Both the position numbers and the translations under genes were made by a program. Shown here one piece after another: positions 3,929-64,000 of a stretch of DNA of 64,000 nucleotides; position 1 is the stretch's first letter, and every line of letters starts with the position of its first letter. The stretch is from Imbricaverruca yamaguchii. Its lineage: Eukaryota > Arthropoda > Thecostraca > Neoverrucidae. The stretch is from assembly GCA_034440575.1 (NCBI GenBank), contig JAOTOL010001646.1:3400001-3464000 (forward strand), written 5' to 3'. The notes under the pieces are model-generated. The model worked only from the letters and a program-made list of their open reading frames with translations, was not told the origin of the DNA and searched no databases.

Positions 3929-4460
3929 CTGGCGGAGAGCCGTCCGTCAGGTTATCCATCGGATGGTGCATACCCACACACCACCCAAACGACGTCTTCA
4001 CGTGTTGGATCTGGCGGACAGCCGTCCGTCAGGTTATCCATCGGATGGTGCATACCCACACACCACCCAAACGACGTCTTCACGTGTTGGATCTGGCGGA
4101 GAGCCGTCCGTCAGGTTATCCATCGGATGGTGCATGCCCACACACCGCCCAAACGACGTCTTCACGTGTTGGATCTGGCGGAGAGCCGTCCGTCAGGTTT
4201 CCATTTATCGATGGTGCATACCCACACCCAAACGACGTCTTCACGTGTTGGATCTGGCGGAAGCCGTCCGTCAGGTTATCCATCGGATGGTGCATACCCA
4301 CATGCCACCAAACGACGTCTTACGTGTTGGATCTGGCGGACAGCCGTCCGTCGTCGGATGGTGCATACCCACATGCCACCCAACGACGTCTTCACGTGTT
4401 GTCTGGCGGACAGCCCGGGTAGCCATCCATCGGATGGTGCATACCCACATACCACCCACA
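3929..4460 (-). repeat. 70-82 bp tandem array containing the exon 5 acceptor
   Basis: Seven units with period 82, 82, 82, 79, 80 and 70 bp (anchor ACGACGTCTTCACG at 3907, 3989, 4071, 4153, 4232, 4312 and 4382). Read on the minus strand, most units hold CTCCGCCAG followed by the first 24 nt of exon 5, then about 50 nt of intron-like sequence with CACCATCCGATGG. The copy next to the exon is the authentic junction. Distal copies carry small deletions and substitutions. Period is not a multiple of three, so use of an upstream acceptor would usually shift the frame. Confidence 0.93.
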
Positions 4461-4724
4461 CAGCCCGTGTCGGGAGTTCCGTTTTCCGAACTGTAGTTGG
4501 GGCATTGGTGAGTGGGGCGTGCGACGTGGCGCTCCAGCGACCAATCAGCCAACGCTTCGTTTCCAATCAGTGATGGTAATGCCAGTATCGACAGCAGTAA
4601 TTGTAATGGTAATGGCATAATGCTGAGCGTGGACCGTGCCATTTTCGGTGTCGATGAGAACGGGACAAGCCGGCAGGAAAGGTGAGAGCAGGTCAGGGCT
4701 CAGCCACGCCGCTCCAAAGTGCCG
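4461..4724. other. MCT intron 4 spacer, nothing recognised
   Basis: No supported gene, only short shadow frames. A degenerate run of AATGGTAATGGCA-like words occurs near 4580-4620. Confidence 0.4.
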
Positions 4725-4922
4725 CTGACACCATGTGCCCGCTGACACCATGTGCCCGCTGACACCATGTGCCGGCTGACACCATGGTCCGTTGACACCA
4801 TGTGTCCGTTGACACCATGTACCCACTGACATCATGTGCCCGCTGACACCATGTGCTGGCTGACACCATGTGCCCGCTGACACCATGACCCGCTGACACC
4901 ATGTGTCAGCTGACACCATATG
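4725..4922. repeat. 17-bp minisatellite, about 12 copies
   Basis: Unit GCTGACACCATGTGCCC with single-base variants (TGTGTCC, TGCCGG, GTTGACACC). It lies within MCT intron 4. The 17-bp period rules out a stable reading frame. Confidence 0.92.
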
Positions 4923-7060: not shown

Positions 7061-7139
7061 GCAACAGCTCGACACCTTCGGTTTGCTATGGGAAGCAGTT
7101 TGATAGCCTTGTTTATAGCATCTACCGACCACCGAACTC

Positions 7140-8381: not shown

Positions 8382-8587
8382 CAGGTGCACGTAGGGGACG
8401 AAGTAGCCGAACAGGCCCAGCGGCACGGCCGCGCACCACACCACGTAGCGCCGGTTCCTCCAGATGTGCACGTTGAACAGCTGGCCGCACAGCACGCCGA
8501 CGCTGCAGTCGCGGAGTGGCGCGGAGCTGTGGCCGGCGTGGCGGGAGCGGAACAGCAGCACGGCGGGCGCCAGACAGCCCACCATCG
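8382..8587 (-). CDS. MCT8/MCT10-like transporter, coding exon 4 (TM6 end, loop, TM7)
   Basis: Minus-strand exon of 206 nt. The acceptor is CCGTTGCAG|CGATGG and the donor GTGCACCTG|GTGAGCG. With the single G carried over from exon 3 it gives 69 codons (entry phase 1, exit phase 0). It starts AMVGCLAPAVLLFRSR (end of TM6), has a short cytoplasmic loop (RHAGHSSAPLRDCSVGVLCG), then WRNRRYVVWCAAVPLGLFGY and FVPYVHL. The last part matches TM7 of MCT8/MCT10. The central loop is short. The first 13 nt (CGATGGTGGGCTG) plus about 20 nt of upstream intron form the unit of the huge adjacent array. Confidence 0.88.
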
Positions 8588-11500
8588 CTGCAACGGGTCA
8601 CGGTCGTCAGCCCACCATCCTGTAACGGGTCACGGTCGTCAGCCCACCATCAGTTGTAGTCGCCCACATCGCTGTAACGGGTCACAGTCGTCAGCCCACC
8701 ATCGCTGTAACGGGTCACAGTCGTCAGCCCACCATCGCTGTAACGGGCACAGTGAGGTCAGCCCACCATCGCTGTAACGGGTCACAGTGTACCCAGTCGT
8801 CAGCCCACCATCGCTGTAACGGGTCACGGTCGTCAGCCCACCATCAGTCGTCAGCCCACCATCGCTGTAACGGATCACAGTCGTCAGCCACAGTCGTCAG
8901 CCCACCATCGCTGTAACGGGTCACGGTCGTCAGCCCACCATCGCTGTAACGGGTCACATGGCCACAGTCGTCAGCCCACCATCGCTGTAACGGGTCACAG
9001 TCGTCAGCCCACCATCGCTGTAACGGGTCATGGCGTGTCAGCCCACCATCGCTGTAACGGGTCACAGTCGTCAGCCCACCATCGCTGTAACGTAGCTGTA
9101 ACTCTCAGTCGTCAGCCCACCATCGCTATAACGGGTCACAGTCGTCAGCCCACCATCGCTATAACGGGTCACAGTGGTCAGCCCACCATCAGTCGTCAGC
9201 CCACCATCGCTGTAACGGGTCACGGTCGTCAGCCCACCATCGCTGTAACGGGTCACGGTCGTCAGCCCACCATCGCTGTAATGGGTCACAGTCGTCAGCC
9301 CACCATCGCTGTAACGGGTCACAGTCGTCAGCCCACCATCGCTGTAACGGGTGGTCACAGTCGTCAGCCCACCATCCTGTAACGGGTCACAGTCGTCAGC
9401 CCACCATCGCTGTAACGGGTCACAGTCGTCAGCCCACCATCATCGCTGTAACGGGTCACAGTCGACAGCCCACCATTGCTGTAACAGGTCACAGTCGTCA
9501 GCCCACCATCGCTGTAACGGGTCACAGTCGTCAGCCCACCATCGCTGTAACGGGTCACAGTCGTCAGCCACAGTCGTCAGCCCACCATCGCTGTAACGGG
9601 TCACGGTCGTCAGCCCACCATCGCTGTAACGGGTCACAGTCGTCAGCCCACCATCACTGTAACGGGTCACAGTCGTCAGCCCACCATTGCTGTAACGGGT
9701 CACAGTCGTCAGCCCACCATCGCTGTAACGGGTCACAGTCGTCAGCCCACCATCAGTCGTCAGCCCACCATCGCTGTAACGGGTCACAGTCGTCAGCCCA
9801 CCATCGCTGTAACGGGTCACAGTCGTCAGCCCACCATCGCTGTAACGGGTCACAGTCGTCAGCCACAGTCGTCAGCCCACCATCGCTGTAACGGGTCACA
9901 GTCGTCAGCCCACCATCGCTGTAACGGGTCACAGTCGTCAGCCACAGTCGTCAGCCCACCATCGCTGTAACGGGTCACAGTCGTCAGCCCACCATCAGTC
10001 GTCAGCCCACCATCGCTGTAACGGGTCACAGTCGTCAGCCCACCATCAGTCGTCAGCCCACCATCGCTGTAACGGGTCACAGTCGTCAGCCCACCATCGC
10101 TGTAACGGGTCACAGTCGTCAGCCCACCATCGCTGTAACGGGTCACAGTCGTCAGCCCACCATCGCTGTAACGGGTCACAGTCGTCAGCCCACCATCGCT
10201 GTAACGGGTCACAGTCGTCAGCCCACCATCGCTGTAACGGGTCACAGTCGTCAGCCCACCATCAGTCGTCAGCCCACCATCGCTGTAACGGGTCACAGTC
10301 GTCAGCCCACCATCGCTGTAACGGGTCACAGTCGTCAGCCCACCATCGCTGTAACGGGTCACAGTCGTCAGCCCACCATCGCTGTAACGGGTCACAGTCG
10401 TCAGCCACAGTCGTCAGCCCACCATCAGTCGTCAGCCCACCATTGCTGTAACGGGTCGCAGTCGTCAGCCACAGTCGTCAGCCCACCATCGCTGTAACGG
10501 GTCACAGTCGTCAGCCCACCATCGCTGTAACGGATCACAGTCGTCAGCCCACCATCGCTGTAACGGGTCAGTCGTCAGCCCACCATTGCTGTAACGGGTC
10601 ACAGTGTGCCACAGTCGTCAGCCCACCATCGCTGTAACGGGTCACAGTCGTCAGCCCACCATTGCTGTAATCAGTCGTCAGCCCCACAGTCGTCAGCCCA
10701 CCATCGCTGTAACGGGTCAAGTCGTCAGCCCACCATCGCTGTAACGGGTCACAGTCGTCAGCCCATCCAGTCGTCAGCCCACCATCGCTGTAACGGGTCA
10801 CAGTCGTCAGCCCACCATGTATCAGTCGTCAGCCCACCATCGCTGTAACGGGTCACAGTCGTCAGCCCACCATCTGTAAGGTCAGTCGTCAGCCCACCAT
10901 CGCTGTAACGGGTCACAGTCGTCAGCCCACCATCGCTGTAACGGGTCACAGTCGTCAGCCCACCATCGCTGTAACGGATCACAGTCGTCAGCCCACCATC
11001 GCTGTAACGGGTCACAGTCGTCAGCCCACCATCGCTGTAACGGGTCACAGTCGTCAGCCCACCATTTCTGTAATGGGTCACAGTCGTCAGCCCACCATCG
11101 CTGTAACGGGTCACAGTCGTCAGCCCACCATCGCTGTAACGGGTCACAGTCGTCAGCCACAGTCGTCAGCCCACCATCAGTCGTCAGCCCACCATTGCTG
11201 TAACGGGTCACAGTCGTCAGCCCACCATCGCTGTAACGGGTCACAGTCGTCAGCCCACCATCAGTCGTCAGCCCACCATCAGTCGTCAGCCCACCATCGC
11301 TGTAACGGGTCACAGTCGTCAGCCCACCATCGCTGTAACGGGTCACAGTCGTCAGCCCACCATCGCTGTAACGGGTCACAGTCGTCAGCCCACCATCAGT
11401 CGTCAGCCCACCATCGCTGTAACGGGTCACAGTCGTCAGCCCACCATCGCTGTAACGGGTCACAGTCGTCAGCCCACCATCGCTGTAACGGGTCACAGTC

Positions 11501-11990
11501 GTCAGCCCACCATCGCTGTAACGGGTCACAGTCGTCAGCCCACCATCGCTGTAACGGGTCACAGTCGTCAGCCCACCATCACTGTAACGGGTCACGGTCG
11601 TCAGCCCACCATCGCTGTAACGGGTCACAGTCGTCAGCCCACCATTCTGTAACGGGTCACAGTCGTCAGCCCACCATCACTGTAACGGGTCACAGTCGTC
11701 AGCCCACCATCGCTGTAACGGGTCACAGTCGTCAGCCCACCATCGCTGTAACGGGTCACAGTCGTCAGCCCACCATTGCTGTAACGGGTCACAGTCGTCA
11801 GCCCACCATCAGTCGTCAGCCCACCATTGCTGTAATGGGTCATAGTCGTCAGCCCACCATCGCTGTAACGGGTCACAGTCGTCAGCCCACCATTGCTGTA
11901 ACGGGTCACAGTCGTCAGCCCACCATCGCTGTAACGGGTCACAGTCGTCAGCCCACCATCGCTGTAACGGGTCACGGTCGTCAGGCGCTG
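8588..11990 (-). repeat. 33-bp array of the exon 4 acceptor, roughly 85-100 units
   Basis: Minus-strand unit is ACGACTGTGACCCGTTACAG followed by CGATGGTGGGCTG. The first 20 nt match the intron end and the last 13 nt match the start of exon 4, so every full unit contains a complete CCGTTACAG|CGATGG acceptor. Shorter 15-18 bp units (CAGCCCACCATCAGTCGT on plus) lack the acceptor and recur irregularly. Homogeneity is high. The array fills almost all of intron 3. In the exon 4 frame each extra unit contains TGA, so using an upstream acceptor would give a premature stop. The long open frames in the array are in other frames. Confidence 0.97.
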
Positions 11991-12279: not shown

Positions 12280-12502
12280 CTGCCAGCACCAGCAGCGTGC
12301 CCTTGATGGCCACCGTCATCAGCAGGTGCTTCATCACGAACGGCATGACGAACGTGAACACGGACGAGCCCATGGTGCAGACGCCGTTGACCAGGCCCAG
12401 CCGGCGCTCGAAGTAGTGGCCGAGCACGACCAGCGACGGCGTGTAGACCAACGACGCGCCGGCGCCGAACACCAGGCCGTAGGTGACCAGCAGCAGCTCA
12501 AA
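12280..12502 (-). CDS. MCT8/MCT10-like transporter, coding exon 3 (TM4-TM5)
   Basis: Minus-strand exon of 223 nt. The acceptor is CATGTCGACAG|TTTGAG and the donor GTGCTGGCAG|GTGTGT. It holds 74 codons plus one base (entry phase 0, exit phase 1). The translation begins FELLLVTYGLVFGAGASLVY, continues with TPSLVVLGHYFERRLGLVNG, then VCTMGSSVFTFVMPFVMKHL and LVLA. The PSLVVLGHYFERRLGLVNG block is the most diagnostic SLC16 segment in the window, covering TM4, the TM4-TM5 turn and TM5. It is flanked on both sides by tandem arrays, 27 nt upstream of the acceptor and about 10 nt beyond the donor. Confidence 0.9.
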
Positions 12503-12529
12503 CTGTCGACATGCGCCGCGCCGCCGTCA

Positions 12530-12890
12530 CCGACACGACACGGCACCGACACGACACGGCACCGACACGACACGGCACCGACACGACACGGCACCGACAC
12601 GACACGGCACCGACACGACACGGCACCGACACGACACGGCACCGACACGACACGGCACCGACACGACACGGCACCGACACGACACGGCACCGACACGACA
12701 CGGCACCGACACGACACGGCACCGACACGACACGGCACCGGCACGACACGGCACCGGCACGACACGGCACCGACACGACACGGCACCGACACGACACGGC
12801 ACCGACACGACACGGCACCGACACGACACGGCACCGACACGACACGGCACCGACACGACACGGCACCGACACGACACGGCACCGGCTCAG
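12530..12890. repeat. 16-bp minisatellite, about 22 copies
   Basis: Near-perfect CGACACGACACGGCAC units, with two GGCACGACACGGCAC variants near 12737-12766. It begins about 27 nt upstream of the exon 3 acceptor of the MCT gene. Unlike the exon 2, 4 and 5 arrays, it does not include exonic bases. Confidence 0.97.
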
Positions 12891-23908: not shown

Positions 23909-24060
23909 CTGTCCGGCGACGAAGGCAGACACGAGCAGGCCGAGGAAGGCGACGACAGCGCCGCAGCAGGCGGTCCGCCGCAGGCCCACGTGGTCGGCCA
24001 GCACCCCGGAGGCCGCCGACGCCAGGAAGGTCATCCCCGTGCAGAGCGATCCAGCCAGCG
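23909..24060 (-). CDS. MCT8/MCT10-like transporter, coding exon 2 (TM2-TM3)
   Basis: Minus-strand exon of 152 nt. The acceptor is CGTCCTCAG|CGCTGG and the donor GCCGGACAG|GTAGCC. With the T carried from exon 1 it gives 51 codons (entry phase 1, exit phase 0). The translation is SLAGSLCTGMTFLASAASG, VLADHVGLRRTACCGAVVA and FLGLLVSAFVAGQ. It contains TM2, the conserved LADHVGLRR turn (an MFS motif A equivalent) and TM3, aligning with the AWVGALxMGMIFF region of MCT8/10. About 43 nt of its start are repeated upstream in five decaying copies. Confidence 0.87.
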
Positions 24061-24505
24061 CTGAGGACGCGAGGTCACATCAGGAGGCCACATCAGGAGG
24101 TCACATCAGGTCACATCAGGAGGTGACGCCAGGAAGATCATCCCCATGCAGAGCGATCCAGCCAGCGCTGAGGACGCGAGGTCACATCAGGAGGTCACAT
24201 CAGGAGGTCACATCAGGTCACATCAGGAGGTGACGCCAGGAACGTCATCCCGTGCAGAGCGATCCGGCCAACGCTGAGGAGGCGAGGTCACATCAGGAGG
24301 TCACATCAGGAGTCACCAGGAGCATCATCCCTGTGTAGAGTGATCCAGCCAGCGCTGAGGACGCGAGGTCACATCAGGAGGAGACATCAGGAGCACCATC
24401 CCCGTGTGGAGCGATTCGGCCAGCGTTGGGGGCAAGAGGTCATATCAGGAGGAGATATCAGGAGCACCATCCCCTTGTAGAGCGATTCAAACGGCAGTGA
24501 GGTCA
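24061..24505 (-). repeat. 71-107 bp tandem copies of the exon 2 acceptor region
   Basis: Copies of the exon 2 start (CGCTGGCTGGATCGCTCTGC onward) occur with junction equivalents at about 24167, 24273, 24354, 24425 and 24495, separated by 107, 106, 81, 71 and 70 bp from the real one at 24060. Between them lie 15-bp sub-repeats of GGTCACATCAGGA on plus. The nearest copy matches about 42 of 44 exonic bases. The fourth has CAA instead of the CAG acceptor and the fifth is much degraded, so similarity falls with distance from the exon. Confidence 0.92.
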
Positions 24506-26585
24506 CGATGTCACATAGGAAGGAGATGCCAGGATATATGCATATATATATATTGGCTGTTCTCCCGTGAGCGGTTTGTGCAAGTGACTCAGACCTGGAA
24601 GCCCAGCCAGGAGACATACCCCATACCCCATAACAAAAGCAAAATACAGGAGATCAAACAAGAAATTGTGGGATTTGCACCACCCCAAACCTGACATCGT
24701 CAGCGGATACCACGCACCGAAATCGTTATCCGTGAAATTGTTTCTTTTTGGTCGCCCCTTCAGAAAATCCTGGCTGCGCCGTTGCTCAAACTGGATGCCA
24801 GTGTCTGACAAGTGAGATCTCATGTGAGCTTGCGTCACACATTTGTGTTGCTTGCTGTTTGTATGTTCTGTATGTTTGCTGCAAACATGGTGTGTACTGA
24901 GATGCACCAACATGTAAATCCAGTAAAAAGGCATATATTGTTATTTCTGTCAATGCAGTTTAACCAAGATCGCATGTCCCAGAACTGCTGAATGCCGTTC
25001 TGTGCGCTAAAATTGGCCGATTAGCTTCCGAGCTATGCACTTCTGATCAGCCCGACCTAATACGACCTTGACCTTTCTGATCTTCCTCTTTCACCCCTGC
25101 AGGTGAAACCTACACAGCTGCGGCGTATGTAGCATGTGTCAATAAATCGTACCAATTTGACAGGCACGCTTCCATTAAAAACCGTGATATGCATGTATCA
25201 ATGCGTAGGTGCTTTGATTGATTGGCCTATTATTCGGGCTTAGGGGCGCATCAACTGCTACTGGATATGCAACGCCCATGTTGAGGTGCTTTGAAATTCA
25301 TGCACAGCCATCAGCGTTCTGGAAGGCTTGCCATTTTACAACATCTTGCGACATGTGCACTTGTGCGTGCATGCGTGTGTGTGTGTGTTGTTTTTAATAA
25401 GCATGATATGCATGCTTGCTGAGACGGTTGTAGGCATCACAAATGTTCATGCTAAAAGCGGTGTGAAGGACATAGGCACAAATGTGTCCAAAAACGATGT
25501 AGATCCTGAATGTTCTTCGATAACAGAACTTGATTGTTTCCCCACGTTACCTGAGCCAGACATTCATCGAGGGAAGCTGAGGTCAGGTGGGGAAATACGC
25601 CCGATATATTTCACACATTTGAATTGAAATTGTCCCGTTGCTAGCAACCCGAACATCCTCAAGTTGCCAACACGTAACGATGCCGCTTCAAGTGAAAGCA
25701 TGCAAAGACGAAAATGTACGCATGCGCAGTTCGTACGAAGCGAAACAAGAAAGTGTTTTCAAAGGAGAATAGAAGTCATTGCTGATCTTGATCCCGATCT
25801 TGGGTGGCAGACATTTAAAAAAAAATGTTATTCATTGGAAATGTGCCGCAAAGCTACATTTAGGCGTCAAGTAATCTACGTCGGCGTTGTCAACGTCCAC
25901 CGCATGGGGCCCTAGCTACATTTCAACCTCGAGCCACGCACTAAGCGACAAATCAGTGGCCTGGCACGAGAGCAGTGTGGACCTGGCCCACACCAGACAG
26001 GTCCGGTGTCACTGAGCTGTGCGCTGCGCCGATGCAGATCCTTTGTTTTCGTTGGCTCGGGTAACGTAGGTCAAATACAACCCGTCGTCGAGGTTGAGCC
26101 GCAACATCGGCAATTCGTGCTTAAAACTCGTGCAGAATACCACTACCGATACGGTGTTCTTCAATAGCTTCGATTCCGGCATGGTAAACACGAACAGCGC
26201 GCCAATTTTGAGTATGGCTTGTTATTAGACGTAGTCTTCTTCCAGAATACGGGAATCGGGACACTAGATGTTGCCTCAAGTTGCGTCTGGACATTTTATG
26301 CCGAATCTGGGTCACATACTTCATGAAATGAGGAACAATTTACTATTAACTGACATTACTCCCAGTATCAGTTCGGCATCTTTAATGACTTGCCACATCA
26401 CACCTGAGTAAAACAGCCAGTACACATCTGTAAATTTTGGCAATACCACGCGACTGAATGGCATCACCATTCCTCTCCCACGAAGAATTACTCGGTGGCA
26501 CTGCTCTCAGTCGACGCTGGTGACTGGATTATCCTGCGGTGTGTGTTACAAGGAGGTCTTCCAGTATCGTGGCGTGCGTGTGCCA
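24506..26585. other. MCT intron 1, mostly unrecognised
   Basis: Contains a short TA repeat near 24536-24552, a GTGTGT run near 25375, and a hairpin-tail repeat at 25226-25280. No genes are supported. Confidence 0.4.
25226..25280 (-). mobile_element. SINE/LINE 3' tail fragment (hairpin-tail family)
   Basis: Plus text TATTATTCGGGCTTAGGGGC, then GCATCAACTG and ATATGCAACGCCCATG. It is the same module as at 5050, 52245 and 59119, with GGGGCGC pairing imperfectly with ACGCCC. Confidence 0.5.
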
Positions 26586-28633: not shown

Positions 28634-28931
28634 AGCACTTGAAGGCAGCGTTGGTGACCCCGTTCTCCTCCATCTGCTGCAGGAACGCCACGTACAGCAC
28701 GCCGTAGCAGTTGATGATGCCGAAGATGACGCCGTTGCAGAGGAAGCTCACCAGCACCACGAAGTAGCCGGCGGCTCCGCGATCCTTCTCCAGCTGCAGC
28801 GCCTCGGGGCTGGGCTGCGGCCGGGTCAGGTCGGTCAGCTTCGGCGGCGAGCCGTCTGGCGTCAGTGAGCGCGACATGTCGGGAGTGGCCCGGCCGCGGC
28901 CACGGCCACGGTCAGCCGTCTGCGGGGGCAT
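28634..28931 (-). CDS. MCT8/MCT10-like transporter, first coding exon (TM1)
   Basis: Minus-strand exon ending TTCAAGTGCT|GTGAGTACT (exit phase 1). Two ATGs are available. The one at 28931 gives MPPQTADRGRGRGRATPD upstream of MSRSLTPDG, and the one at 28877 starts at MSRSLTPDG. I list the longer form, with the start unresolved. After a proline-rich cytoplasmic N-terminus comes GYFVVLVSFLCNGVIFGIIN and CYGVLYVAFLQQMEENG, the TM1 of MCT8/MCT10-type SLC16 carriers (CNGxxFGIxNxxGVL). The usual GGWGW-like signature before TM1 is degenerate here (DRGAAGYF). The product should be a 12-TM plasma-membrane transporter. The MCT8/10 branch carries thyroid hormones or aromatic amino acids in vertebrates, but the substrate here is unknown. 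Confidence 0.85.
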
Positions 28932-44456: not shown

Positions 44457-47400
44457 CTACGACGAGTTGCTGCCTGGGACGGTCGCTGAGGCAGGGACAG
44501 GCGCCGGCTCGACACCCACGGCATCGAGCACGTCGAACACGCCTCTCGCGTTGTCGTACAGCGGCTGGAGGTCGGCATCTGCGGCGGAGTCGTCCAACAG
44601 CCGCCGCAGACACAGCCACACCGTGTCCGAGTCGTACTGGGCGGTGGCGAGCAGCAGCCGGGCCGCGGCCGTCTGCAGCTCGTCCGGCTGGCGGCAACTG
44701 AGGTAAGGCAGCGCGGCCAGCACCAGCTCCTCCACCTGCAGCACGTCCAGTCGCAGCCGCGCCGCTATCTCGCCCAGCAGCCGCAGGCACGTCGCCTGCA
44801 GCTTGTACGTCTGCGAGTGGGCCAGGTTCGCCGTGGCGCCGCGGGTGGCGCTGGCGTCGGCCTGCGCGCGCAGCCAGCTGAGCAGCGGCCGCAGCGGGCC
44901 GGTGGTGACGCGGTGTCGCAGGAAGTCGCCGGCGCAGCAGACGACCGCGTGCAGCGCCGTCAGCGCGTGCCGCAGCAGCAGCGGCTGCTGCCGGGCGGCG
45001 CAGCAGCGCACCAGCGGCTGCCAGCAGCGGGCGGCCAGCGGCAGCAGCTCGTCGGGCCAGGCGGCCAGCAGCCGGCTGCCGGCGGCCAGCGTCGCCAGGA
45101 CGTCCACCTGCACGGCTATCTGGTCGCAGTCGAGGAAGTGGACCGCCTGCAGCACCACGTCTCGCACCAGCTGCAGGTGCGGCGGCACGGCACGCTTCTG
45201 TTCCGCGTCTGCGTCGCGCTGCGTCTCCGGCGCCGGGTCGGCGGGCGCGTCCTCCGGCGCGCTCCAGTGCTGCCGAAACTCTGCCTCCGCCTCTTCCGGC
45301 GGCTCCTCGACGGCGGCGAGAGCCAGCTCACGACGCAGCGCCATCAGGCGCCGGTGGTGCGCCAGCAGCCGCTGGGCAGCCGGCGGCGGCGGCGGTGGGT
45401 CGTCGGCTGGCGCCGGCTCCGGCGGGTACCAGCGCGCGACGGCGTCGACGGTGCGCCGCAGCGCCGACAGACACGCCGCGCCGCAGTGTTCGTAGTCCTC
45501 GTCCAGAGCGCGCATCACCGGCCGCACCATGTCCTCCAGGTAGGGCAGCGCGTCCGCCATCCCCGGCTCGGAGAGCTGCAGCACGGCGGCCACCAGCAGC
45601 GGCGCCACCTGGCGGCCGCGCCGGCACGCCAGCCGCGTGCGCACGTGCACCGCCAGCCGGCCGACGTTGGCGAGGATCAGCGCCGGCACGCCGCGCTCGC
45701 CCGCCATGGCGGTGACCGTGGCGCGCGCCGCCTCCGGAACCAGGCCGTCGGCGCCGCCGGCCGCCTCCAGCACCGGACACAGCGCCAGCAGGTGCAGCGC
45801 CCACTGGCGGCCAGGCGTAACACGCGCCAAGTGGGCGAGGCCCTGCAGGCCGAGGCAGCGACACACGGCCGACCGTTCCGGCTCGATGAGCAGCAGCAGC
45901 GGCTCGGGGTCGATCAACTGCTCCAGCTCCGGCAGCTGTTGCACCCGGCGCGCCGACAGCAGAGCCGGCTCCTGACCCAGCACCAGCTGGTTCCAGATGA
46001 CGCGGTCCTCGTCCGAGTCGCCGGCGTCGAGCAGGTCAAGCAGCGTGATCAGGTCGCCGTGGCAACCAAGCAGGCGACACGCCGAGCAGATGCGCCGCCA
46101 CACCTCCGAGTCGTCGAAGTGCTTGAACCGCAGGAACTCCGGGAACCGAGTCGGTCCGCCGATTGGTCCGTGTGGCGTGACGTAGGCCACGACGGCGGCG
46201 TCCGACCGCAGCTCCACCAGCTGCGTCAGGCAGCTGATCAGCCGGCGCACGTGCGCCGACGACCCGGTCAGCTGGCGCACCCGGGGGCCCAGCAGGTGGA
46301 GGTAGCCCTCGAGCAGCGACAGCTGCACCAGGCCGGCCGTTGTGTCGTGGCTGCGCACGACGGTCGGCAGTCGCGTCACCAGCGCGTACAGGTCCTCCTC
46401 CACCACCTCGACCAGCGTCTTGGTCAGCGCCCGCTCCTGGACGGCCCGCAGCGCCGTGTCGGCCGCGGCGCGCACGGCGGCCAGCTCGTCGCACGACACC
46501 AGGATCAGCAGCTGCAGCAGCGGCGAGGCGCAGTCGGCCAGCGTGCCGGCGCACTGCGTCAGCACGCGCCTGCCCAGCTCGACCAGCGCGAGTCTGACGT
46601 CCGGCTGGTGGTGGCGCGTCAGCGGGCTCAGCGCCGACACCATCGGCAGCAGGCGGGCCGACACCGAGCCCAGCCACGCCTCGGAGCGCTCCAGGCTGGG
46701 CAGACGCGGGTCGGCCGGCGACGCGGCCGGCTCGCGCGCAGCGGCGTCCCGCACGGCGTCGTCCGACAGCACGTGGCAGACGAGCGCCGTCCAGGCGTGC
46801 AGCGCGCGCGCCATCAGCCGGTGGCCGTGCTTCAGGTCGCCGGCGAACACGGCGTGCAGCGCGCTCAGCACGCCCGGCAGCAGCGCCACGAACAGGCGCG
46901 AGCTGCGCCGGCGCAGCGCCGCCGGCAGCTGCTGCTCGGCCCGCTCCGTGCCGGCGCACGCCAGCAGACAGTCGACGGCGGCCAGCCGCAGCTGCCGGCT
47001 GCGCTCGCCGCGCACGGCCGCCACCAGGTGGAACACGGCGTGGCCCAGCGCCAGCCGGCCGCGCTCCGAGTAGAGCGCCTCCAGCGCCGCCGGCCGGCAG
47101 CTCAGCACCAGCGCCGTGCCGCAGCGCAGCACGGCCATGCGCAGCTCCTCGCTGGTGGCCGGCGGCGTCGGGTCACCGGCGCCGGCGCCCAGCAGCAGGA
47201 ACACGCGCTGGAACAGGTCGAGCGCCAGCGGCGCGCTGTCGGCGCCGGTCCGCTCCAACACGGACGTGGCCAGCTCCAGGGCGGCTATGGTGAGCCGCTC
47301 GTCCCGACCATGCGCGCGGATCACCGTGTACACTGGGAAGAGGATGTACTCCTGGAGACCCTCCAGCGTACCGGCGTCCGCCTCGGCCAGCGCCTCCTGC

Positions 47401-47498
47401 AGCTGCTGCACATTTTTGTACGTCGGGTCGTTAATCAGGCAGACGCAGGTTGGCTGAATGCGGAGAAATAGTGGAGACTTTTTTGGTGTGGACTTCAT
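44457..47498 (-). CDS. TTI1: TELO2-interacting protein 1 homologue
   Basis: Open frame of 1013 codons, close to the roughly 1090 residues of vertebrate TTI1. TTI1 is an alpha-solenoid (HEAT/ARM) scaffold of the TTT complex (TELO2-TTI1-TTI2), which with R2TP and HSP90 matures PIKK kinases such as mTOR, ATM and ATR in the cytoplasm. Diagnostic regions are the N-terminal QEYILFPVYTVI (residues 50-61), and in the C-terminal half a HEAT pair around VHFLDCDQIAVQVDVL, then CCAGDFLRHRV, YKLQATCLRLLGEIAARLRL and LPYLSCRQPDELQ. A proline/acidic linker separates the halves. No intron interrupts the frame. The true N-terminus is uncertain: CTATTTCTCCGCATTCAG|CCAACCTGC at codons 15-16 looks like an acceptor, so an upstream exon may replace MKSTPKKSPLFLRIQ. 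Codon use is strongly GC-rich. Confidence 0.92.
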   Translation of the reverse strand: MKSTPKKSPLFLRIQPTCVCLINDPTYKNVQQLQEALAEADAGTLEGLQEYILFPVYTVIRAHGRDERLTIAALELATSVLERTGADSAPLALDLFQRVFLLLGAGAGDPTPPATSEELRMAVLRCGTALVLSCRPAALEALYSERGRLALGHAVFHLVAAVRGERSRQLRLAAVDCLLACAGTERAEQQLPAALRRRSSRLFVALLPGVLSALHAVFAGDLKHGHRLMARALHAWTALVCHVLSDDAVRDAAAREPAASPADPRLPSLERSEAWLGSVSARLLPMVSALSPLTRHHQPDVRLALVELGRRVLTQCAGTLADCASPLLQLLILVSCDELAAVRAAADTALRAVQERALTKTLVEVVEEDLYALVTRLPTVVRSHDTTAGLVQLSLLEGYLHLLGPRVRQLTGSSAHVRRLISCLTQLVELRSDAAVVAYVTPHGPIGGPTRFPEFLRFKHFDDSEVWRRICSACRLLGCHGDLITLLDLLDAGDSDEDRVIWNQLVLGQEPALLSARRVQQLPELEQLIDPEPLLLLIEPERSAVCRCLGLQGLAHLARVTPGRQWALHLLALCPVLEAAGGADGLVPEAARATVTAMAGERGVPALILANVGRLAVHVRTRLACRRGRQVAPLLVAAVLQLSEPGMADALPYLEDMVRPVMRALDEDYEHCGAACLSALRRTVDAVARWYPPEPAPADDPPPPPPAAQRLLAHHRRLMALRRELALAAVEEPPEEAEAEFRQHWSAPEDAPADPAPETQRDADAEQKRAVPPHLQLVRDVVLQAVHFLDCDQIAVQVDVLATLAAGSRLLAAWPDELLPLAARCWQPLVRCCAARQQPLLLRHALTALHAVVCCAGDFLRHRVTTGPLRPLLSWLRAQADASATRGATANLAHSQTYKLQATCLRLLGEIAARLRLDVLQVEELVLAALPYLSCRQPDELQTAAARLLLATAQYDSDTVWLCLRRLLDDSAADADLQPLYDNARGVFDVLDAVGVEPAPVPASATVPGSNSS

Positions 47499-48064
47499 CC
47501 TGGAAGAGGCGAGAACTGTTCATCACTACTACACGTTGCAGATGGCCTTCACGCCCACCCACATCACCAATGGCACACCGAATGATGTGGTGAATGGTAA
47601 TACTCGTGTTACCGGGGCAGCATTGGCTTCGGAAACCATGACATGACAAGTCAGACCATCAGACAAGTCGATGTGGTAGCTTTTCGAAAAACCGTTGTAC
47701 ATCATGGAAAAAAATGTTTTTGTTATCAACGCATCACTGTGAAGATTCAGGACTGTACACGATGTCATGTACTCCTAATCCATAATCCCGCACAAGTGAC
47801 GGATAAACAACTCCTGGAGGCAGTTGCGAAGAGCAGTCGAGCGTCAACATGGTGCATCCCATTCGCTACACAACATGGCTGCACCGTTTCTGAGGCGTAA
47901 CCGGTGGCTATGGCCAGGCATCACCGATCACGAGCGCAAGTCGTCACGCTCATCGACAAGCATATAGTAAACAACGGTATTGGACGTATTCATAATGTGT
48001 TGTATTGCTACAATGCAGACGGATTACACATTCGCCAGCCCACAAACACCCCAAAAAAGCACGC
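47499..48064. other. Spacer between NSUN4 and TTI1
   Basis: 566 nt between the NSUN4 stop and the TTI1 start on the same strand. It should hold the NSUN4 3' end and the TTI1 5' UTR or a first exon. No consensus AATAAA was seen on the minus strand. Short frames here have no recognised domain. Confidence 0.4.
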
Positions 48065-49498
48065 CTACTTCACTCTGACAATCTTGGCAAAGTACGTCGG
48101 ACCGTAGTTGTTCAGCACGGACGGCAAGACCTGCTGGCCGTACTTGATTCCCACACCTCGCGCGAACCACATCGAGCCGTAGAAGGGCTGCATGGCGTGC
48201 TCCATGTCCTTCACCACCACCTGGATGTCGGTATCCTCCCACAGCTGCTTGAGCGCCATGTGCACGACGCCGTCGTTCTGCACGGGCGACAGAGTGCACG
48301 TCGAGTACACGACAGTGCCGCCCGGCCGCACCGCCTCCACCGCGCGCCGCAGCAGGTTCGTCTGCACCTGCGGCAGCATGATCCGCTCGCGCGACCGACG
48401 CACGCTGAACAGACTGTTGTCGTCCTCGGCCAGCGAGTGACGGTCCGCGAAGCACGGCACGTCCACCAGCACCCTGTCGTAGGCGTCCCGCTCGGGCAGA
48501 CTCTGGCCGTCGCGCCGGCTGACTGTGACCGTGCACGGCCAGTCGGCCGGCGGCAGGTAGTCCAGCAGCACCTGCCGCAGCCGCCGCAGCCGGCCCGACT
48601 GCGTGTCGTGGCACACCAGCGAGCCGGGCCGCAGCGTCTGCAGGATGGCCAGCGCCTTGCCGCCGGGCGCGGCGCACATGTCCAGCACGGCGTCGCCCGG
48701 CTGCACGTCCAGCGCCAGCACGGGCAGCAGCGACGCGCCGTCCAGCGGGTAGTAGTCGGTGGCGCCGGACGCGGCGCGCCGTGGCCGCGGGAACAGCGAC
48801 ACGTCGCCGCTCGGGAAGGCGAGCACGCGCAGCGCGTCCGGCAGCGCCAGGCACACCTCGCGCTGCAGCGCCACCTTGAGACTGCCGTCGTCCTGGCCGA
48901 ACTGGAAGTAGTCGCCCTCCTCCAGCCAGTCGTCGTCGCCGTGCAGCTGCGACGCCGGCACGTAGTCGTGCAGCACGGGCGCCGCCAGCTCCGACGGCTG
49001 CACCACGCGCAGCCGGCCGGCCGCCGCCGCGTCGGCCTCCGCCTGCGCCGCCGCCGCGTCAGCTGCCGTCTGCGCCGTCTCCGCCGCGTCGGTCGGCGCT
49101 GCGGCCGCGCGGGTGGGCGGCGGCGCGTGGGCGGCGGTCGGTCGGCGCGACAGCCGCTCCTGGCGTTCGTCGGTGCGCCGCCGCAGCTCGGCGGTCAGGT
49201 CGAGCGCGCCGGCGGCCGTCAGCCGGGCGACCGTGTCGGCCACGCCGCCGTAGTGGTTGACGAGCGCCGTCGGCTTGGCGCGGCACAGCAGCGCCAGCCG
49301 CATCGAGCGCCAGCGCGGCCCGTACGTCTCCGGGTAGAAGTGGTCAAAGTGCTTCATGGCCAGCGCCGAGCCGGACTGGTTCTGCCGCACGGCCGCCCAG
49401 TGGTCGGCCTTCCTGCCCTTCCAGCGGCGGCCAGCCTGCGCCCACGCTCGGGTACAGCGTGTGCACAGCTCCTTCACATTCGCAGCGCGTCGGTTCAT
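48065..49498 (-). CDS. NSUN4: NSUN4-like mitochondrial rRNA m5C methyltransferase
   Basis: 477 codons without an intron. NSUN4 methylates a cytosine of mitochondrial small-subunit rRNA and partners with MTERF4 in mitoribosome assembly. The N-terminal part (residues 48-90, KHFDHFYPETYGPRWRSMRL, LVNHYGGVADTVARL) matches the NSUN4-specific region. Residues about 118-165 are an alanine-rich insertion making the protein longer than the human enzyme (384 residues). The Rossmann methyltransferase core has the SAM-binding CAAPGGK (275-281), the DVPC motif with C349 and the STC motif with C401, the two cysteines of the m5C mechanism. The end, NNYGPTYFAKIVRVK, matches the family C-terminus. The basic N-terminus MNRRAANVKELCTRCTRAW could be a mitochondrial targeting sequence. 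Confidence 0.93.
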   Translation of the reverse strand: MNRRAANVKELCTRCTRAWAQAGRRWKGRKADHWAAVRQNQSGSALAMKHFDHFYPETYGPRWRSMRLALLCRAKPTALVNHYGGVADTVARLTAAGALDLTAELRRRTDERQERLSRRPTAAHAPPPTRAAAAPTDAAETAQTAADAAAAQAEADAAAAGRLRVVQPSELAAPVLHDYVPASQLHGDDDWLEEGDYFQFGQDDGSLKVALQREVCLALPDALRVLAFPSGDVSLFPRPRRAASGATDYYPLDGASLLPVLALDVQPGDAVLDMCAAPGGKALAILQTLRPGSLVCHDTQSGRLRRLRQVLLDYLPPADWPCTVTVSRRDGQSLPERDAYDRVLVDVPCFADRHSLAEDDNSLFSVRRSRERIMLPQVQTNLLRRAVEAVRPGGTVVYSTCTLSPVQNDGVVHMALKQLWEDTDIQVVVKDMEHAMQPFYGSMWFARGVGIKYGQQVLPSVLNNYGPTYFAKIVRVK

Positions 49499-50079
49499 CG
49501 TGCTCAGTCGTAATAAGCCCTGTGCAATAGATTCGGTGGTTCTTATTGGCTACTAGTCGACGGCCAGCAGAAACACGTCTATGCTGTCATATGTATGCAT
49601 CAAACGCGTCTTGCGACACACCATCTATCCTATTACTGCTTTTTACAGAGTCGTGTCTAGTCCTGGAAAACATCCACGTATGCAGGTTAACGGAGCCGCA
49701 AACAACAACGGTCACTCACAGTAGGTCCTAACTCTAACTAGGGACATCATTTATTCTCAGCGTCCTGAAATTGACTTTTTGTAGAGTGGGGGATAACAGG
49801 GGTGATATAAAAAAGCCAACATTGTGTAAGAATGTGTAAACACGTATAGATAATGCCTACTAATGAGTGATCATCTATGATCTTTACTGTAGTGGTTGAG
49901 TTAGCCGTCAGTAGATGTCACCGCTGTCGCCCCCTCAGCTGAGCTATGTGAGCCCAATACAATTCTCGTTCTGACTTCCCCGCATGGTTAAAATATTGGT
50001 TTTTTGCTAGGTATGAGATGTCGAAACGGGCAAGGAAAAGAAAAGGGAATGTGGGGCCAGTTTCACCTTATGTTTGGCT
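49499..50079. other. NSUN4 upstream region
   Basis: On the minus strand TAGCCAATAAG lies about 50 nt upstream of the NSUN4 start and could be a CCAAT-type element. Nothing else is recognised. Confidence 0.3.
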
Positions 50080-58048: not shown

Positions 58049-58117
58049 ATGGCTGAAGACCCAAATGAATGGAAAAGTCCAGCCTACAGGCAGAAGGCAA
58101 GGCAACACATTGAAGAT
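58049..58117 (+). CDS. MED15: MED15, first coding exon
   Basis: 69 nt (23 codons, exit phase 0). ATG follows an acceptor-like TATCTCCAG directly, so a non-coding exon may precede it. The donor is GAAGAT|GTAAGTT. The peptide begins MAEDPNEWKSPAYRQKARQH and ends IED, the start of the KIX domain of Mediator subunit 15 (W-K-x-P-x-[FY]-R-Q pattern). MED15 is a tail subunit of Mediator that binds activators through KIX in the nucleus. Too short to be caught as a long open frame; assigned because it joins exon 2 in phase and completes KIX helix 1. Confidence 0.85.
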
Positions 58118-59611: not shown

Positions 59612-59761
<150 letters not shown>

Positions 59762-59803: not shown

Positions 59804-60499
59804 GTTATCCGCCAATCAGGCAACCCGACCAATAAGACCAGCTTCGAGATGGAGAACCACGTCTTCCAGCGTGCCAAGAGTCGTGAGGAATACGTCGGAT
59901 TCCTCAGCCGGCTGATTCTGCACATCGATAAGTTCAAGCAAGCGGGCGACCCGATACACGCGCTACAGAGCATGGCCGGTCCGCAACAGGTGTCCGGCAT
60001 GATGCAACAACAGCCGCCACAGCAGCAGCAGCAACAGCAGCAACAGCAGCAGGACCAGACGGCCATGCTGTCCAGCATGGCGGTGCGCGGCCAGATGATG
60101 CAGCAGCAGCAGCAGCAGCAGCAGCCGGGCCTGCACGCGCTGCAGCTGCAGCAGCAGCGCATGCAGACGCAGATGATGATGCAGGGCGGCGGCCAGATGA
60201 GCATGCTGCCGCAGATGGGCGGCATGGCGCGGCAGCCGGCGGCGGCCGTCCCGCGCGGCATGGTGGCCTCGCCGGGCGCGCTGGCCGGCATGATCAAGCA
60301 GCAGCCGTCGCCGGCGTTCGCGGCGCCGTCGCCGGGCGGCGGCCTGGGCCAGTCGCCGATGGCGGCCGGCTCGGTCAAGGTGGCCAGCCAGATGAGCGCG
60401 CCGTCGCCGCAGATGCACACGCCGGCCGGGCCCGCCAACACGACGCCCTCGCCGCGCAACCAGAGCGACGACAACCAGTACATGGAGAAGGTCAAGCAG
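59804..60499 (+). CDS. MED15: MED15, coding exon 2 (KIX end and Gln/Met-rich region)
   Basis: 696 nt (232 codons, phase 0 both ends), residues 24-255. The acceptor is GAACCGCAG|GTTATC and the donor GTCAAGCAG|GTGAGG. It begins [20 protein letters not shown], then [20 protein letters not shown], the rest of the KIX domain (helices 1-3, about residues 8-75). Next come DPIHALQSM, two polyglutamine tracts (60017-60054 and 60102-60124), long Gln/Met/Gly-rich low complexity, and NQYMEKVKQ, the start of the conserved central region. The architecture matches MED15 of arthropods and vertebrates. Confidence 0.92.
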
Positions 60500-62391
60500 G
60501 TGAGGCTCGGCCGCGCGCGCGGCTCCGGCCGGCAGTCGGCGCCTTGTGGTGAGGCGGCGCTTCTGGGCCGGTCCGACTCACCGCCCGGCAGACTTTCCAG
60601 ATGCGCTGGCGAGGTGTTTAACTTGTTGGTTGGGTATGAGGCGGGCTTCATCTGACGGAGAATGTCCGGCTATGGTTTGAGTAATATTCTCCATGTGGTC
60701 GCTCCAGTTTCGTTTGTATTTTTGTTTAATGTAAAAGTGAAATAAGAATTGACGATTGATGGTGCACAAGCAGTGCGTGTGTGCCTTCTGACTTGCTTAA
60801 ATGAGGCAAAATTCTGACTGCCAGCGCGATATCCATTCGCAAAATGTGAAGTCATTGCGGAAAGTCTGTCATCTTAACACGCGCACGTCCGAGGGACAGA
60901 TATCTGCCCCCTCCGGTTTTTCCTCATGTGCCGCCAAACTATTCGGGTTAGCAAGGGCAAACCTCGCGTAGCTGTTCATTGGTCTTTTCCGCATATCCTC
61001 ATGCATTTTTAATCCTGGGTCATCTCAGGTCAGGTCACCAGGTCTGCGAAGTGACCCAATTACACTCAGAGTTCTAGGTGGCCTATGTTCCACTATAATT
61101 GGGCGATTGATTGCAAACTTATAACATGCCATGATCTCATCAGGGACATAATATGTATATCGTTTTTTTCCTATCATTGACCTTAGGTCAGGTCGCGGCC
61201 ATGGCTTCCCCATTATAGGGCAATGGTAAAATATACAAATGTTTCCTGGTTACATATTTGCGCTCAGAATGATCTCACAACGGTTGTGGCATGTAGATGG
61301 AAGCTATATTTTAATGATTTGGATAGGGGGATTAAAAAAAAAAAAAGCTCAATGTTACCGCTGACATTTTTGCTCAGTGACCTCACCAAGGTCTCTGAGG
61401 TCACCTGAGATCACTACACCTTTCTGCGCATTATATCGCACTGCATTGATCTCAAAGGCCGAAATTACCGTCATTGTGCTTGTATCGCCAAGACGTGTCG
61501 ATTGATACATTACACGACCTCCCTAGGCGACTTCATGACCTTGACCTGAGTTTCGGTTGACCTGACCTTAAATTGCACCGCCTATTGTCGCTGGCGCATT
61601 TCAATGACTGTCGAATGGCGTTCGCCGTTTGTTTCTATCGGGTCCTGAGCTATGTGTCAATATCTGCGTCCCACCTGATCTGGTCGAATTTGACCTACGA
61701 TGACCCAGTGACCTGAATGTTGACCTGAGCGAAAAAAAAGACCCAACCACTTTCAATAGAGCCCGTCGCCAGCTATCCAACGCCGTTTTCCGTTTGTCGC
61801 TAGCTAGCATAGTTCTAGAGATCTCAGGGGGCAGACATCTGCCCCCCTCCCAACATGCGAAGTTGGCGCGGACCTCCGGACGTGCGAGTGTTACGGGATT
61901 ATGAAGATGTGGTATGCTGGTCTCCATGATGGGCACTCACACGATCCTTCCTTCAGCCAACTTTGGTCACCCAACATTTCTGGAATATGCTGTTGTATGA
62001 CATCAGCTTTTTCTTCTCTCTTGTAAGAATACTTGATCCATTAGTGAGCAATGTGGAGATTGGTGGTTTGGGGAAGTTCATCATGTAGTGCATATTGAGA
62101 AAATACTATTTGCTCAAGGTATGCATAGGTATTCGTCATACTCCAACCATAAAAGATGGTGTTGTGAGTGCACTAATGTAGTGTTTGATGGCTGCAGTTC
62201 ACCATGGTTGCAGCTGTGTCACTGAACCGCCATTTTCCCGTTGCTCTTCCTTGCTCTGTGGATAATAGTATAACCAACAAACAAATAATGCTGCCTAAAG
62301 CCGGAACCACCCTCTATCCAAGCAGGTTATCAGTCATTTTGGTATTGTGCAATCAGGTAGTGTCTGACATGCTGATTCTCCCGCTCGCCAG
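60500..62391. other. MED15 intron 2
   Basis: Intron carrying the second copy of the 1-kb TTAA-flanked element (60874-61894). The rest is unrecognised. Confidence 0.7.
60874..61894. mobile_element. TTAA-flanked non-autonomous DNA transposon, copy 2
   Basis: Collinear with 2297-3312 along its whole length. It starts TTAACACGCGCACGTCCG and ends CCGGACGTGCGAGTGTTAC, so the right TTAA has decayed to TTAC. The inner GGGGGCAGACATCTGCCCCC palindrome is conserved. Inserted in the same orientation within MED15 intron 2. A run of A's near 61335-61346 is specific to this copy. Confidence 0.75.
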
Positions 62392-62628
62392 CTGAGTAAG
62401 TACATCGAGCCCATCAAGCGGATGATCGAGAACACGAGTCAGCAGGACACGGCCAAGTTGAGCAAGATGAAAAAGCTGCTCGACATTCTGGAGAACCCGA
62501 GCCGCCAATTCCCCGTTGATCTCCTTATCAAGTGCGAGCAGGTGTTGGAAAAGCTGGAGATCAACCAGCACGGCGATGCTGGCCACGGCCATAGTCAGCA
62601 GCAACACACCACCCACAAGGAGTACCAG
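62392..62628 (+). CDS. MED15: MED15, coding exon 3 (central conserved domain)
   Basis: 237 nt (79 codons, phase 0), residues 256-334. The acceptor is CCGCTCGCCAG|CTGAGT and the donor GAGTACCAG|GTGAGCG. It begins LSKYIEPIKRMIENTSQQDT, then AKLSKMKKLLDILENPSRQF and DLLIKCEQVLEKLEINQ. This is the MED15 central segment that follows NQYMEKVKQ without a gap in homologues. It ends in a histidine/glutamine-rich HGHSQQQHTTHKEYQ. The last roughly 45 nt with the donor are tandemly repeated for the remaining 1.4 kb of the window, so the true position of the exon 3 donor is ambiguous. The gene continues beyond 64000. Confidence 0.9.
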
Positions 62629-64000
62629 GTGAGCGTGACACCGACCATAGCCATAGTCAGCAGCAACACACCACTCACAAGGAGTACCAGGTGAGCGTGA
62701 CACCGACCATAGTCAGCAGCAACACACCACCCACAAGGAGTACCAGGTGAGCGTGACCCCGACCATAGCCATAGTCAGCAGCAGCACACCACCCACAAGG
62801 AGTACCAGGTGAGCGTGACACCGACCATAGTCAGCAGCAGCACACCACCCACAAGGAGTACCAGGTGAGCGTGACACCGACTAGCATAGTCAGCAGCAGC
62901 ACACCACCCACAGAGTACCAGGTGACTGACCATAGCCATAGTCAGCAGCAGCACACCACCCACAAGGAGTACCAGGTGAGCGTGACCCCGACCATAGCCA
63001 TAGTCAGCAGCAGCACACCACTCACAAGGAGTACCAGGTGAGCGTGACCCCGACCATAGCCATAGTCAGCAGCAACACACCACCCACAAGGAGTACCAGG
63101 TGAGCGTGACCCTGACCATAGCCATAGTCAGCAGCAACACACCACCCACAAGGAGTACCAGGTGAGCGTGACCCTGACCATAGTCAGCAGCAGCACACCA
63201 CCCACAAGGAGTACCAGGTGAGCGTGACACCGACCATAGCCATAGTCAGCAGCAACACACCACCCACAAGGAGTACCAGGTGAGCGTGACCCTGACCATA
63301 GTCAGCAGCAACACACCACCCACAAGGAGTACCAGGTGAGCGTGACCCCGACCATAGCCATAGTCAGCAGCAACACACCACCCACAAGGAGTACCAGGTG
63401 AGCGTGACACCGACCATAGTCAGCAGCAACACACCACCCACAAGGAGTACCAGGTGAGCGTGACCCTGACCATAGTCAGCAGCAACACACCACCCACAAG
63501 GAGTACCAGGTGAGCGTGACCTGACCATAGTCAGCAGCAGCACACCACCCACAAGGAGTACCAGGTGAGCGTGACCCTGACCATAGTCAGCAGCAACACA
63601 CCACCCACAAGGAGTACCAGGTGAGCGTGACCCTGACCATAGCCATAGTCAGCAGCAACACACCACCCACAAGGAGTACCAGGTGAGCGTGACCCTGACC
63701 ATAGTCAGCAGCAGCACACCACCCACAAGGAGTACCAGGTGAGCGCGACACCGACCATAGTCAGCAGCAACACACCACCCACAAGGAGTACCAGGTGAGC
63801 GTGACCCTGACCATAGCCATAGTCAGCAGCAACACACCACCCACAAGGAGTACCAGGTGAGCGTGACCCTGACCATAGCCATAGTCAGCAGCAACACACC
63901 ACCCACAAGGAGTACCAGGTGAGCGTGACCCGACCATAGTCAGCAGCAACACACCACCCACAAGGAGTACCAGGTGAGCGTGACCCCGACCATAGCCATA
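62584..64000 (+). repeat. MED15: 54-62 bp array of the MED15 exon 3 end and its donor, 24 donors
   Basis: Unit contains CATAGTCAGCAGCAACACAC, CACCCACAAGGAGTACCAG and the donor GTGAGCGTGAC, then a linker ACCGACCATAGC. Period is mostly 62 or 56 bp depending on one extra CATAGC, with a few units of about 54-55. I count 24 donor positions from 62629 to 63973. All but one (62922, GTGACT) keep GTGAGC. The first unit is the real exon end. The array runs off the right edge, so its length is unknown. Use of a later donor would usually shift the frame or meet a TGA. Confidence 0.96.

Follow-up and report, generated by a model that had tools for sequence, protein, structure and literature searches.

Results

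The MCT10-like and MED15 genes of the window

The window, which is the whole 64,000-nt stretch of Imbricaverruca yamaguchii DNA that was analyzed, contains an MCT10-like gene on the minus strand and a MED15 gene on the plus strand. The barnacle genome carrying it is 767 Mb in size. Tandem arrays were called with TRF, splice junctions were placed, and the overlaps between the two were computed; after merging, 35 arrays cover 30.7% of the window.

In the MCT10-like gene (all features on the minus strand; a slash marks the junction), exon 1 (28634..28877, coding from the ATG) has the donor GTGAGT and no array at its junction. Exon 2 (23909..24060) starts at 24060, and its acceptor, CCTCAG/CGCTGG, is located within an array with a period of 107 bp (24018..24534), which includes 43 exon nucleotides and has three close decoy acceptors; further into this array, TRF rows of 71 to 81 bp are found. 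The acceptor of exon 3 (12280..12502), at 12502, is outside any array: a nearby 16-bp array (12528..12884; 22 copies, 99% match) stops 25 nt upstream of it, and the junction is not included. The acceptor of exon 4 (8382..8587; donor CTG/GTGAGC), GTTGCAG/CGATGG at 8587, is covered by a 33-bp repeat of about 3.4 kb (8575..11984), with 13 exon nucleotides and 85 close decoy acceptors. This repeat consists of a TRF row at 8575-8651, a 10-nt break at 8652-8661, and then more rows up to 11984. The authentic copy reads GTTGCAG, and nearly all internal copies read GTTACAG. Exon 5 (3788..3928) has its acceptor, CGCCAG/ATCCAAC (3928), within an 82-bp array (3905..4458) with 24 exon nucleotides and five close decoy acceptors.

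The MED15 gene (plus strand) starts with exon 1 (MAEDPNEWKSPAYRQ...; 58049..58117, donor GTAAGT), followed by exon 2 (59804..60499, donor GTGAGG), which encodes the Med15 N-terminal KIX domain and a polyQ stretch, and exon 3 (Med15_M; 62392..62628). The donor of exon 3, CAG/GTGAGC, with the exon ending at 62628, lies within an array with units of mostly 56 and 62 bp (62588..64000), which includes 41 exon nucleotides. This array extends about 4.07 kb beyond the window (L033:1-4067), being about 5.5 kb in all, and contains 89 close donor copies, 87 of them with an intact GT.

Four splice junctions are embedded in arrays

When a junction is required to have at least 10 exon nt and at least 10 intron nt within an array, four of the 14 junctions of the two genes qualify, each with the exon edge, the splice site, and intron sequence in the repeat unit: three acceptors (MCT exons 2, 4, and 5) and one donor (MED15 exon 3). 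This is in agreement with the original prediction, in which the same four cases were named, among about 11 boundaries instead of the 14 placed here. It had also been predicted that chance would rarely produce four such cases, and this is borne out: when whole arrays are moved at random within the window with an exon tolerance of 46 nt, a mean of 0.30 junctions is covered, and four or more are covered in none of 3000 shuffles (mean 0.43 and P 0.0007 at a tolerance of 60 nt). Since the window was picked for its junction arrays, the test is post hoc, and with that qualification chance placement is rejected. A single repeat family or mobile element was also considered and rejected, as the units of the window arrays appear, by inspection, to be unrelated.

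The outermost copy is indicated as the authentic junction

The spliced reading frames of both genes join across the array junctions. The spliced MCT protein aligns to human MCT10 across them, and the MED15 join (...HTTHKEYQ/VILDTVNG) aligns across the array junction to an Amphibalanus amphitrite protein as well as to a protein of 86% identity encoded on a 1306-nt contig. The exon part of the MED15 unit, HKEYQVILDTVN, is also present in the more distant homologue P0127. The match to the P. pollicipes MCT model ends just after junction 3 and is thus silent on MCT exons 4 and 5. Together, the homologous proteins point to the outermost copy as the probable authentic junction, in line with the earlier suggestion, as one possible cause, of selection preserving only this copy.

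Among the 182 close decoy copies in the four window arrays, the AG or GT is intact in 180, and 174 have scores equal to or above that of the authentic site; up to 87 intact decoys are present at one junction (MED15 exon 3). The use of a decoy is predicted to cause an in-frame stop in 180 cases and a frameshift in two. The AG/GT columns vary in at most 2% of the units that pass the length filter (75 of 104 cuts for MCT exon 4; 83 of 88 for MED15). This intactness is what would be expected if the extra copies were kept by selection, strengthening or regulating splicing at the junction. Such a role is nevertheless unlikely, since several adjacent intron columns are equally invariant, as expected from recent homogenization, and since all 182 close decoys lead to a stop or a frameshift if used.

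Junction arrays occur in two other gene families

The survey covers 95 exons, with 190 ends, from two other, unrelated families: myosin (72 matches, 70 retrieved, 69 exons counted) and SLC6 (97 matches, 30 retrieved, 26 counted). One long single-frame match (L002) and four near-identical paralogue copies (L090-L093) were left out before counting. Two of the 138 myosin ends lack a pickable site; these are outside the probe set of 136 but inside the 190. The reading of the very long open frames among the myosin matches as stop-free introns was rejected, a stop occurring at most 20 codons ahead of the exon in the case checked (L021).

The junction is duplicated, with at least 10 exon nt and the splice site, at 12 of 190 exon ends (6%, CI 3-11%), these being four of 95 acceptors and eight of 95 donors; the other 178 ends have no accepted copy. 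Up to 46 nt of exon are included in the accepted TRF arrays. Since these ends belong to two other families, junction arrays are not peculiar to the window, and the idea of a recurrent process with unrelated units is strengthened. The L082 donor was counted after a wider scan and inspection. Three apparent hits, the L016 acceptor, the L037 acceptor (in-frame stops), and the L062 donor, are rejected, the junction pick being wrong or doubtful on inspection, and three borderline cases with 5 to 9 exon nt (L057 donor, L063 donor, and L084 acceptor) are uncounted. Also uncounted are the wider-scan acceptors of L016, L017, L021, L037, L042, L050, L051, L055, L067, L069, L076, L082, and L096, together with the donor of L085, whose offsets appear, from the scan output alone, to fall in intronic arrays or off the homology edge.

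Junctions compared with introns and exon interiors

Junction-spanning probes are copied at 13 of the 136 myosin ends (on vetting, eight accepted, two borderline, and three rejected), as compared with 18 to 30 of 136 (unvetted) at intron positions 60 to 500 nt from the junction and one of 136 in the exon interior at +60 nt. Reversed probes are copied at none of the 136 junctions and at two to six of 136 of these intron positions. Array coverage, calculated for 97 myosin junctions, is 0.18 to 0.25 on the intron side as far as 60 nt short of the junction; nearer to it the values are 0.20, 0.16, 0.09, 0.08, and 0.05, and then about 0.01 within the exon. The control comparison proposed with the original prediction, run here on probes, shows junction overlap to be lower than that of intron positions. 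The prediction that amplification starts at, or is tolerated at, junctions is supported in its second part; the first, in its strong sense, is not supported, because junction probes are copied less than intron positions. Most of the junction arrays can be accounted for by tolerance, given how rich the genome is in minisatellites.

A weaker form of the first part survives. Between -60 and +20 nt, 31 array ends are observed versus 12.9 expected from GC-matched introns (2.4-fold; Poisson P ~1e-5; 136 junctions of myosin exons only, with neighboring loci overlapping in places), which exceeds the prediction of pure tolerance and leaves room for a junction-proximal bias. Exon-facing array ends amount to 5.4 per unique kb at -20 to 0 nt versus 0.96 per kb at distances above 100 nt; farther out, there are 1.7 per kb at -100 to -60 nt and 17 in about 20.1 kb of unique sequence at -300 to -100 nt. 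For the 190 ends, 10 straddling arrays have TRF support, versus 2.9 expected if at most one unit is taken from the exon (P 0.0009) and about 9.7 if ends are uniform per nucleotide (P 0.50).

It is possible, although doubtful, that exon edges are true hotspots of tandem duplication, at which breaks linked to transcription or splicing, R-loops, or fork stalling seed arrays more than elsewhere. The excess of array ends, mainly in the last 60 nt, is in agreement with this, as is one SLC6 junction that bears different units in two paralogues. As the straddling expectation is model-dependent, this reading depends chiefly on the array-end test, which was carried out on myosin exons with some overlapping loci. 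Against it, straddling probes are rarer than probes at intron positions; arrays that once extended over a junction would lose detectable similarity on the constrained exon side, such that ends would gather at the edge without a hotspot; and the deep-intron background may contain recent transposon insertions, too young for arrays.

At one SLC6 junction, the intron predates the arrays

Introns are reportedly gained by tandem duplication that includes splice signals, as in the Rogers model and the internal duplications of Gao and Lynch. The window arrays could be relics of such a birth, in which exon segments with AG/GT were tandemly duplicated to give the introns. The units hold exon and splice site, as this model requires, and such an origin is proposed for mirages by the amphioxus authors (PMC3087553). 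It is, however, very improbable here. At the SLC6 junction, the intron is common to five paralogues, and junction arrays are found in two of these, with unrelated units of 49 and 88 bp; among the paralogues that lack such an array, the sites are well placed in L089 and L101, and L102 is a weak pick. The intron therefore predates the arrays at this junction, the sole one compared, and intron creation by duplication is not observed there. Moreover, the exon segments within the units encode conserved protein sequence, as seen for the MED15 segment shared with P0127.

Tandem arrays are also a known source of misassembly, but it is very unlikely that they arose in this way here: the copies in an array are not identical to each other, junction arrays are found on numerous contigs, which in some cases are several Mb long, and homologous junctions bear different units.

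Discussion

The window arrays are probably junction-spanning minisatellites ("mirages") that grow on the intron side and leave the mRNA unaltered. Tandem duplications would occur in and around the introns of this minisatellite-rich genome, and when a duplicated segment includes a junction and little exon (up to 46 nt), copies would accumulate on the intron side. If the splicing machinery, as expected under exon definition, keeps the exon paired with its outermost site, the one nearest the exon, the mRNA would be unaltered and the array free to grow. Homologues conserve the exon edge. We infer exon-proximal choice in Imbricaverruca yamaguchii and the neutrality of the arrays. There is also a hint, but no proof, of a modest added tendency for arrays to arise or persist within 60 nt of exon edges. 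More speculatively, exon edges might be a birth hotspot for minisatellites, with a rate two to three times that of GC-matched positions, and each array might act as a natural competition among as many as 88 near-identical splice sites, decided by position alone.

The arrays lend themselves directly to tests of exon definition, having many near-identical sites of which one is expected to be in use, and in barnacle annotation they may give rise to gene models that are truncated or wrong.

Intron gain by tandem duplication, as in the Rogers model and in Gao and Lynch, likewise duplicates splice signals; in the barnacle, however, duplication lengthens an intron and makes no new one, the intron predating the array at the SLC6 junction. 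The 38-bp repeat of TERT intron 6 is also an intronic minisatellite (VNTR), but the start of its abstract mentions no splice junction in the unit. No report of junction-spanning minisatellites in barnacles is present among the matches listed (titles and starts of abstracts), which for two of the lists were 25 of 242 and 12 of 7,771.

The barnacle junction arrays are of the same known kind as the amphioxus mirages. Mirages are known from Adh3 and the globin genes BflGb6 and BflGb9, many repeats retain AG/GT, and edge copies escape homogenization (PMC3087553). Shared with these are a unit consisting of exon edge, splice site, and intron (33-107 bp in the window), the retention of AG/GT in many repeats (180 of 182 close copies here), and the involvement of both acceptor and donor sides (three and one in the window, four and eight in the survey). 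The host differs, being a barnacle and not a cephalochordate, and so does the scale, with an array of about 5.5 kb and 87 intact decoys versus three to six repeat units in the BflGb6 example. In amphioxus, splicing and somatic instability were assayed, whereas here a frequency is obtained from 190 exon ends. Mirages, known from a few genes in amphioxus, are thereby extended to an arthropod, in several of its gene families, with a frequency of about 6% of the exon ends examined.

Genes and repeats of the window

Minisatellites occur throughout the window, as found with Tandem Repeats Finder (TRF) and by direct reading, and 35 merged arrays with a period of at least 8 make up 30.7% of it; the assembly containing the window comprises 767 Mb in 1430 contigs. 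The five exons of MCT, a monocarboxylate transporter gene of the MCT8/MCT10 type on the minus strand, are joined in frame, and the 322-residue product aligns to the PDB MCT10 chain over all four junctions (E 3.5e-65), with 74% identity to Pollicipes pollicipes across 63% of the MCT length. In MED15, on the plus strand, Med15 domains are found; its five-exon reading extends beyond the window, and residues 250-499 are 82% identical to Amphibalanus amphitrite. Judged by such identities the sequence is from a barnacle, apparently one other than P. pollicipes and A. amphitrite. Between these genes, on the minus strand, TTI1 (44457-47519, 1020 aa, 60% identity to A. amphitrite) and an RsmB/F-type methyltransferase (48065-49549) each form one long GC-rich open frame, and no introns were seen in either frame within the window. 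The stretches 2260-3330 and 60870-61900, which blastn aligns over 583 nt at 84.6% identity, are copies of one interspersed repeat.

Splice junctions inside tandem arrays

When a qualifying junction is taken as one whose array includes at least 10 exon nt and at least 10 intron nt, 4 of the 14 placed junctions lie inside arrays, and these are the four sites of the original prediction. On the minus strand they are the acceptors of MCT exon 2 (43 exon nt in the array, period 107), exon 4 (13 exon nt, period 33) and exon 5 (24 exon nt, period 82), and on the plus strand the donor of MED15 exon 3 (41 exon nt, units of 56/62). The expectation that chance placement would rarely give four such junctions agrees with shuffling of the arrays (mean 0.30; at least four in 0 of 3000 shuffles), a test that is not unbiased, because the window was picked for this feature. 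A further MCT case is likely just outside the window, in the array L032:2-656 of the adjoining stretch (minus strand; G000:C1413:3390001-3400000, in which 5000 bases are N), where the end of the next exon, ...ALGDALEPHQ/GTGAGG, is a putative donor that appears to lie inside the array (unit roughly 64 bp) and is followed by eight more copies of the site spaced 64-73 nt apart. Beyond the other end of the window, an array (L033:5911-6139) starts where the MED15 coding sequence ends; this puts the region of the stop codon, too, on the edge of an array, here without a splice site.

The homologues indicate which copy is authentic. In A. amphitrite, as in a protein of 86% identity encoded on a 1306-nt contig, MED15 reads ...TTHKEYQVILDTVNG or similar, uninterrupted across the junction, with VNC as the A. 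amphitrite variant, and a more distant homologue (P0127) retains HKEYQVILDTVN. Since homologues read through this junction, the exon edge is the conserved sequence and the array is the derived copy. The P. pollicipes MCT is joined across junctions 1 and 2, and the MCT exon 4-5 junction is covered by the alignments of PDB MCT10 and other homologues. The match of the P. pollicipes model (P0005) ends just past the exon 3-4 junction, the site of the 3.4-kb array of the window; perhaps arrays break gene prediction in this MCT10-like gene too.

Among 182 close internal copies in the four window arrays, AG/GT is intact in 180, and the scores of 174 equal or exceed that of the authentic site; use of these decoys is predicted to give an in-frame stop in 180 cases and to shift the frame in the other 2. 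For the protein to be the same as that of the relatives, the spliceosome would have to choose the outermost site, by position or by exon context, and the obvious candidate for such a choice is exon definition.

Recurrence in other gene families

The survey, from which the discovery genes are absent, covers 190 ends of 69 myosin head (PF00063) and 26 SLC6 transporter (PF00209) exons located by Pfam models, with junctions chosen close to where the homology match ends, on the basis of splice-site score, blind to arrays and without annotation. At 12 of the 190 ends (6.3%, exact 95% CI 3.3-10.8%) the splice site is copied locally together with at least 10 exon nt, a count that includes the wider scan and in which some matches were vetted by eye. 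This agrees with the claim of a process recurring beyond one repeat family and one window, as ends in two other gene families are duplicated likewise. The accepted acceptors are at the survey exons L044, L073, L100 and L103, and the donors at L003, L021, L027, L030, L042, L050, L082 and L084; ten of the twelve are TRF arrays, and the L021 and L030 donors have one extra copy each, found by the scan. At the L100 donor (629-686), a two-copy 29-bp array opens exactly at the GT, with zero exon bases.

In the SLC6 family, the acceptor at the start of the ...GG(M/I)YV.../AGPYIL exon is common to five paralogues; two have junction arrays, with unrelated units of 49 and 88 bp, and such an array is absent in the other three, one of which has a weakly scored junction pick. 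A second junction seems common to several paralogues, within two codons by our reading. One paralogue has there an array in which a 35-bp unit is repeated about 17 times, a borderline case because its exon part is just about 7 nt. Four near-identical paralogues have the exon start copied only once, in decayed form, and in L090 this copy lies 83 nt up the intron. The sequences indicate that at these SLC6 junctions the introns predate the arrays, which arose later, more than once. Similar copies of SLC6 genes are also found paired in inverted orientation (C1377:507124-528158 and C1156:840490-858320), apparently recent duplications, which are useful for dating arrays.

Targeting or tolerance

It had been proposed that amplification either starts at junctions or is tolerated there. 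Copies of 40-nt probes (at least 28/40 matching within 950 nt of intron) were sought at 136 myosin junctions. Junction-centred probes are copied at 4 acceptors and 9 donors (none for reversed probes); of these 13 cases, 8 stand after inspection by eye, 2 are borderline and 3 were rejected. The unvetted counts are 28-30 for intron probes 60-300 nt from the junction, 23 and 18 at 400 and 500 nt (reversed controls at 60-500 nt, 2-6), and 1 for probes 60 nt inside the exon. Array coverage at 97 myosin junctions is 0.18-0.25 until 60 nt before the junction, then declines across it and reaches about 0.01 within the exon, and no peak was found at the junction, so junctions are struck less than introns.

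Exon-facing array ends are in excess between -60 and +20 (31 observed versus 12.9 expected from GC-matched intron positions more than 100 nt away; 136 myosin junctions, Poisson P about 1e-5). This excess, measured like coverage on myosin exons alone, may come partly from arrays that once spanned the junction and whose similarity has since faded on the exon side, which is under constraint, and partly from a background that holds recent insertions. The excess of straddling arrays depends on the model: over the 190 ends, 10 are seen versus 2.9 expected (P 0.0009) when an array can include no more than one unit of exon, and versus about 9.7 (P 0.50) when array ends are spread evenly over nucleotides. 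Given the lower junction coverage, the end excess and this model dependence, we take tolerance as the main cause of the junction arrays, and a modest bias toward junction proximity is possible.

Comparison with known structures

The same structure is named 'mirages' in amphioxus Adh3 and is also described in two globin genes. Splicing is reported there as normal, on the strength of Adh3 data and of RT-PCR for the globins, and instability in somatic cells is reported at Adh3 (PMC3087553, whose reference list includes the original Adh paper of 2002). No barnacle report of such structures was found among the matches listed in the literature searched (titles and abstract starts), nor was one found in passages of the P. 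pollicipes genome paper, which gives 3.2% repeats by RepeatMasker, almost all of the simple or low-complexity class (PMC8917513). By this amphioxus account, the mirages and the barnacle junction arrays are alike in structure; the barnacle arrays described here come from one genome assembly.
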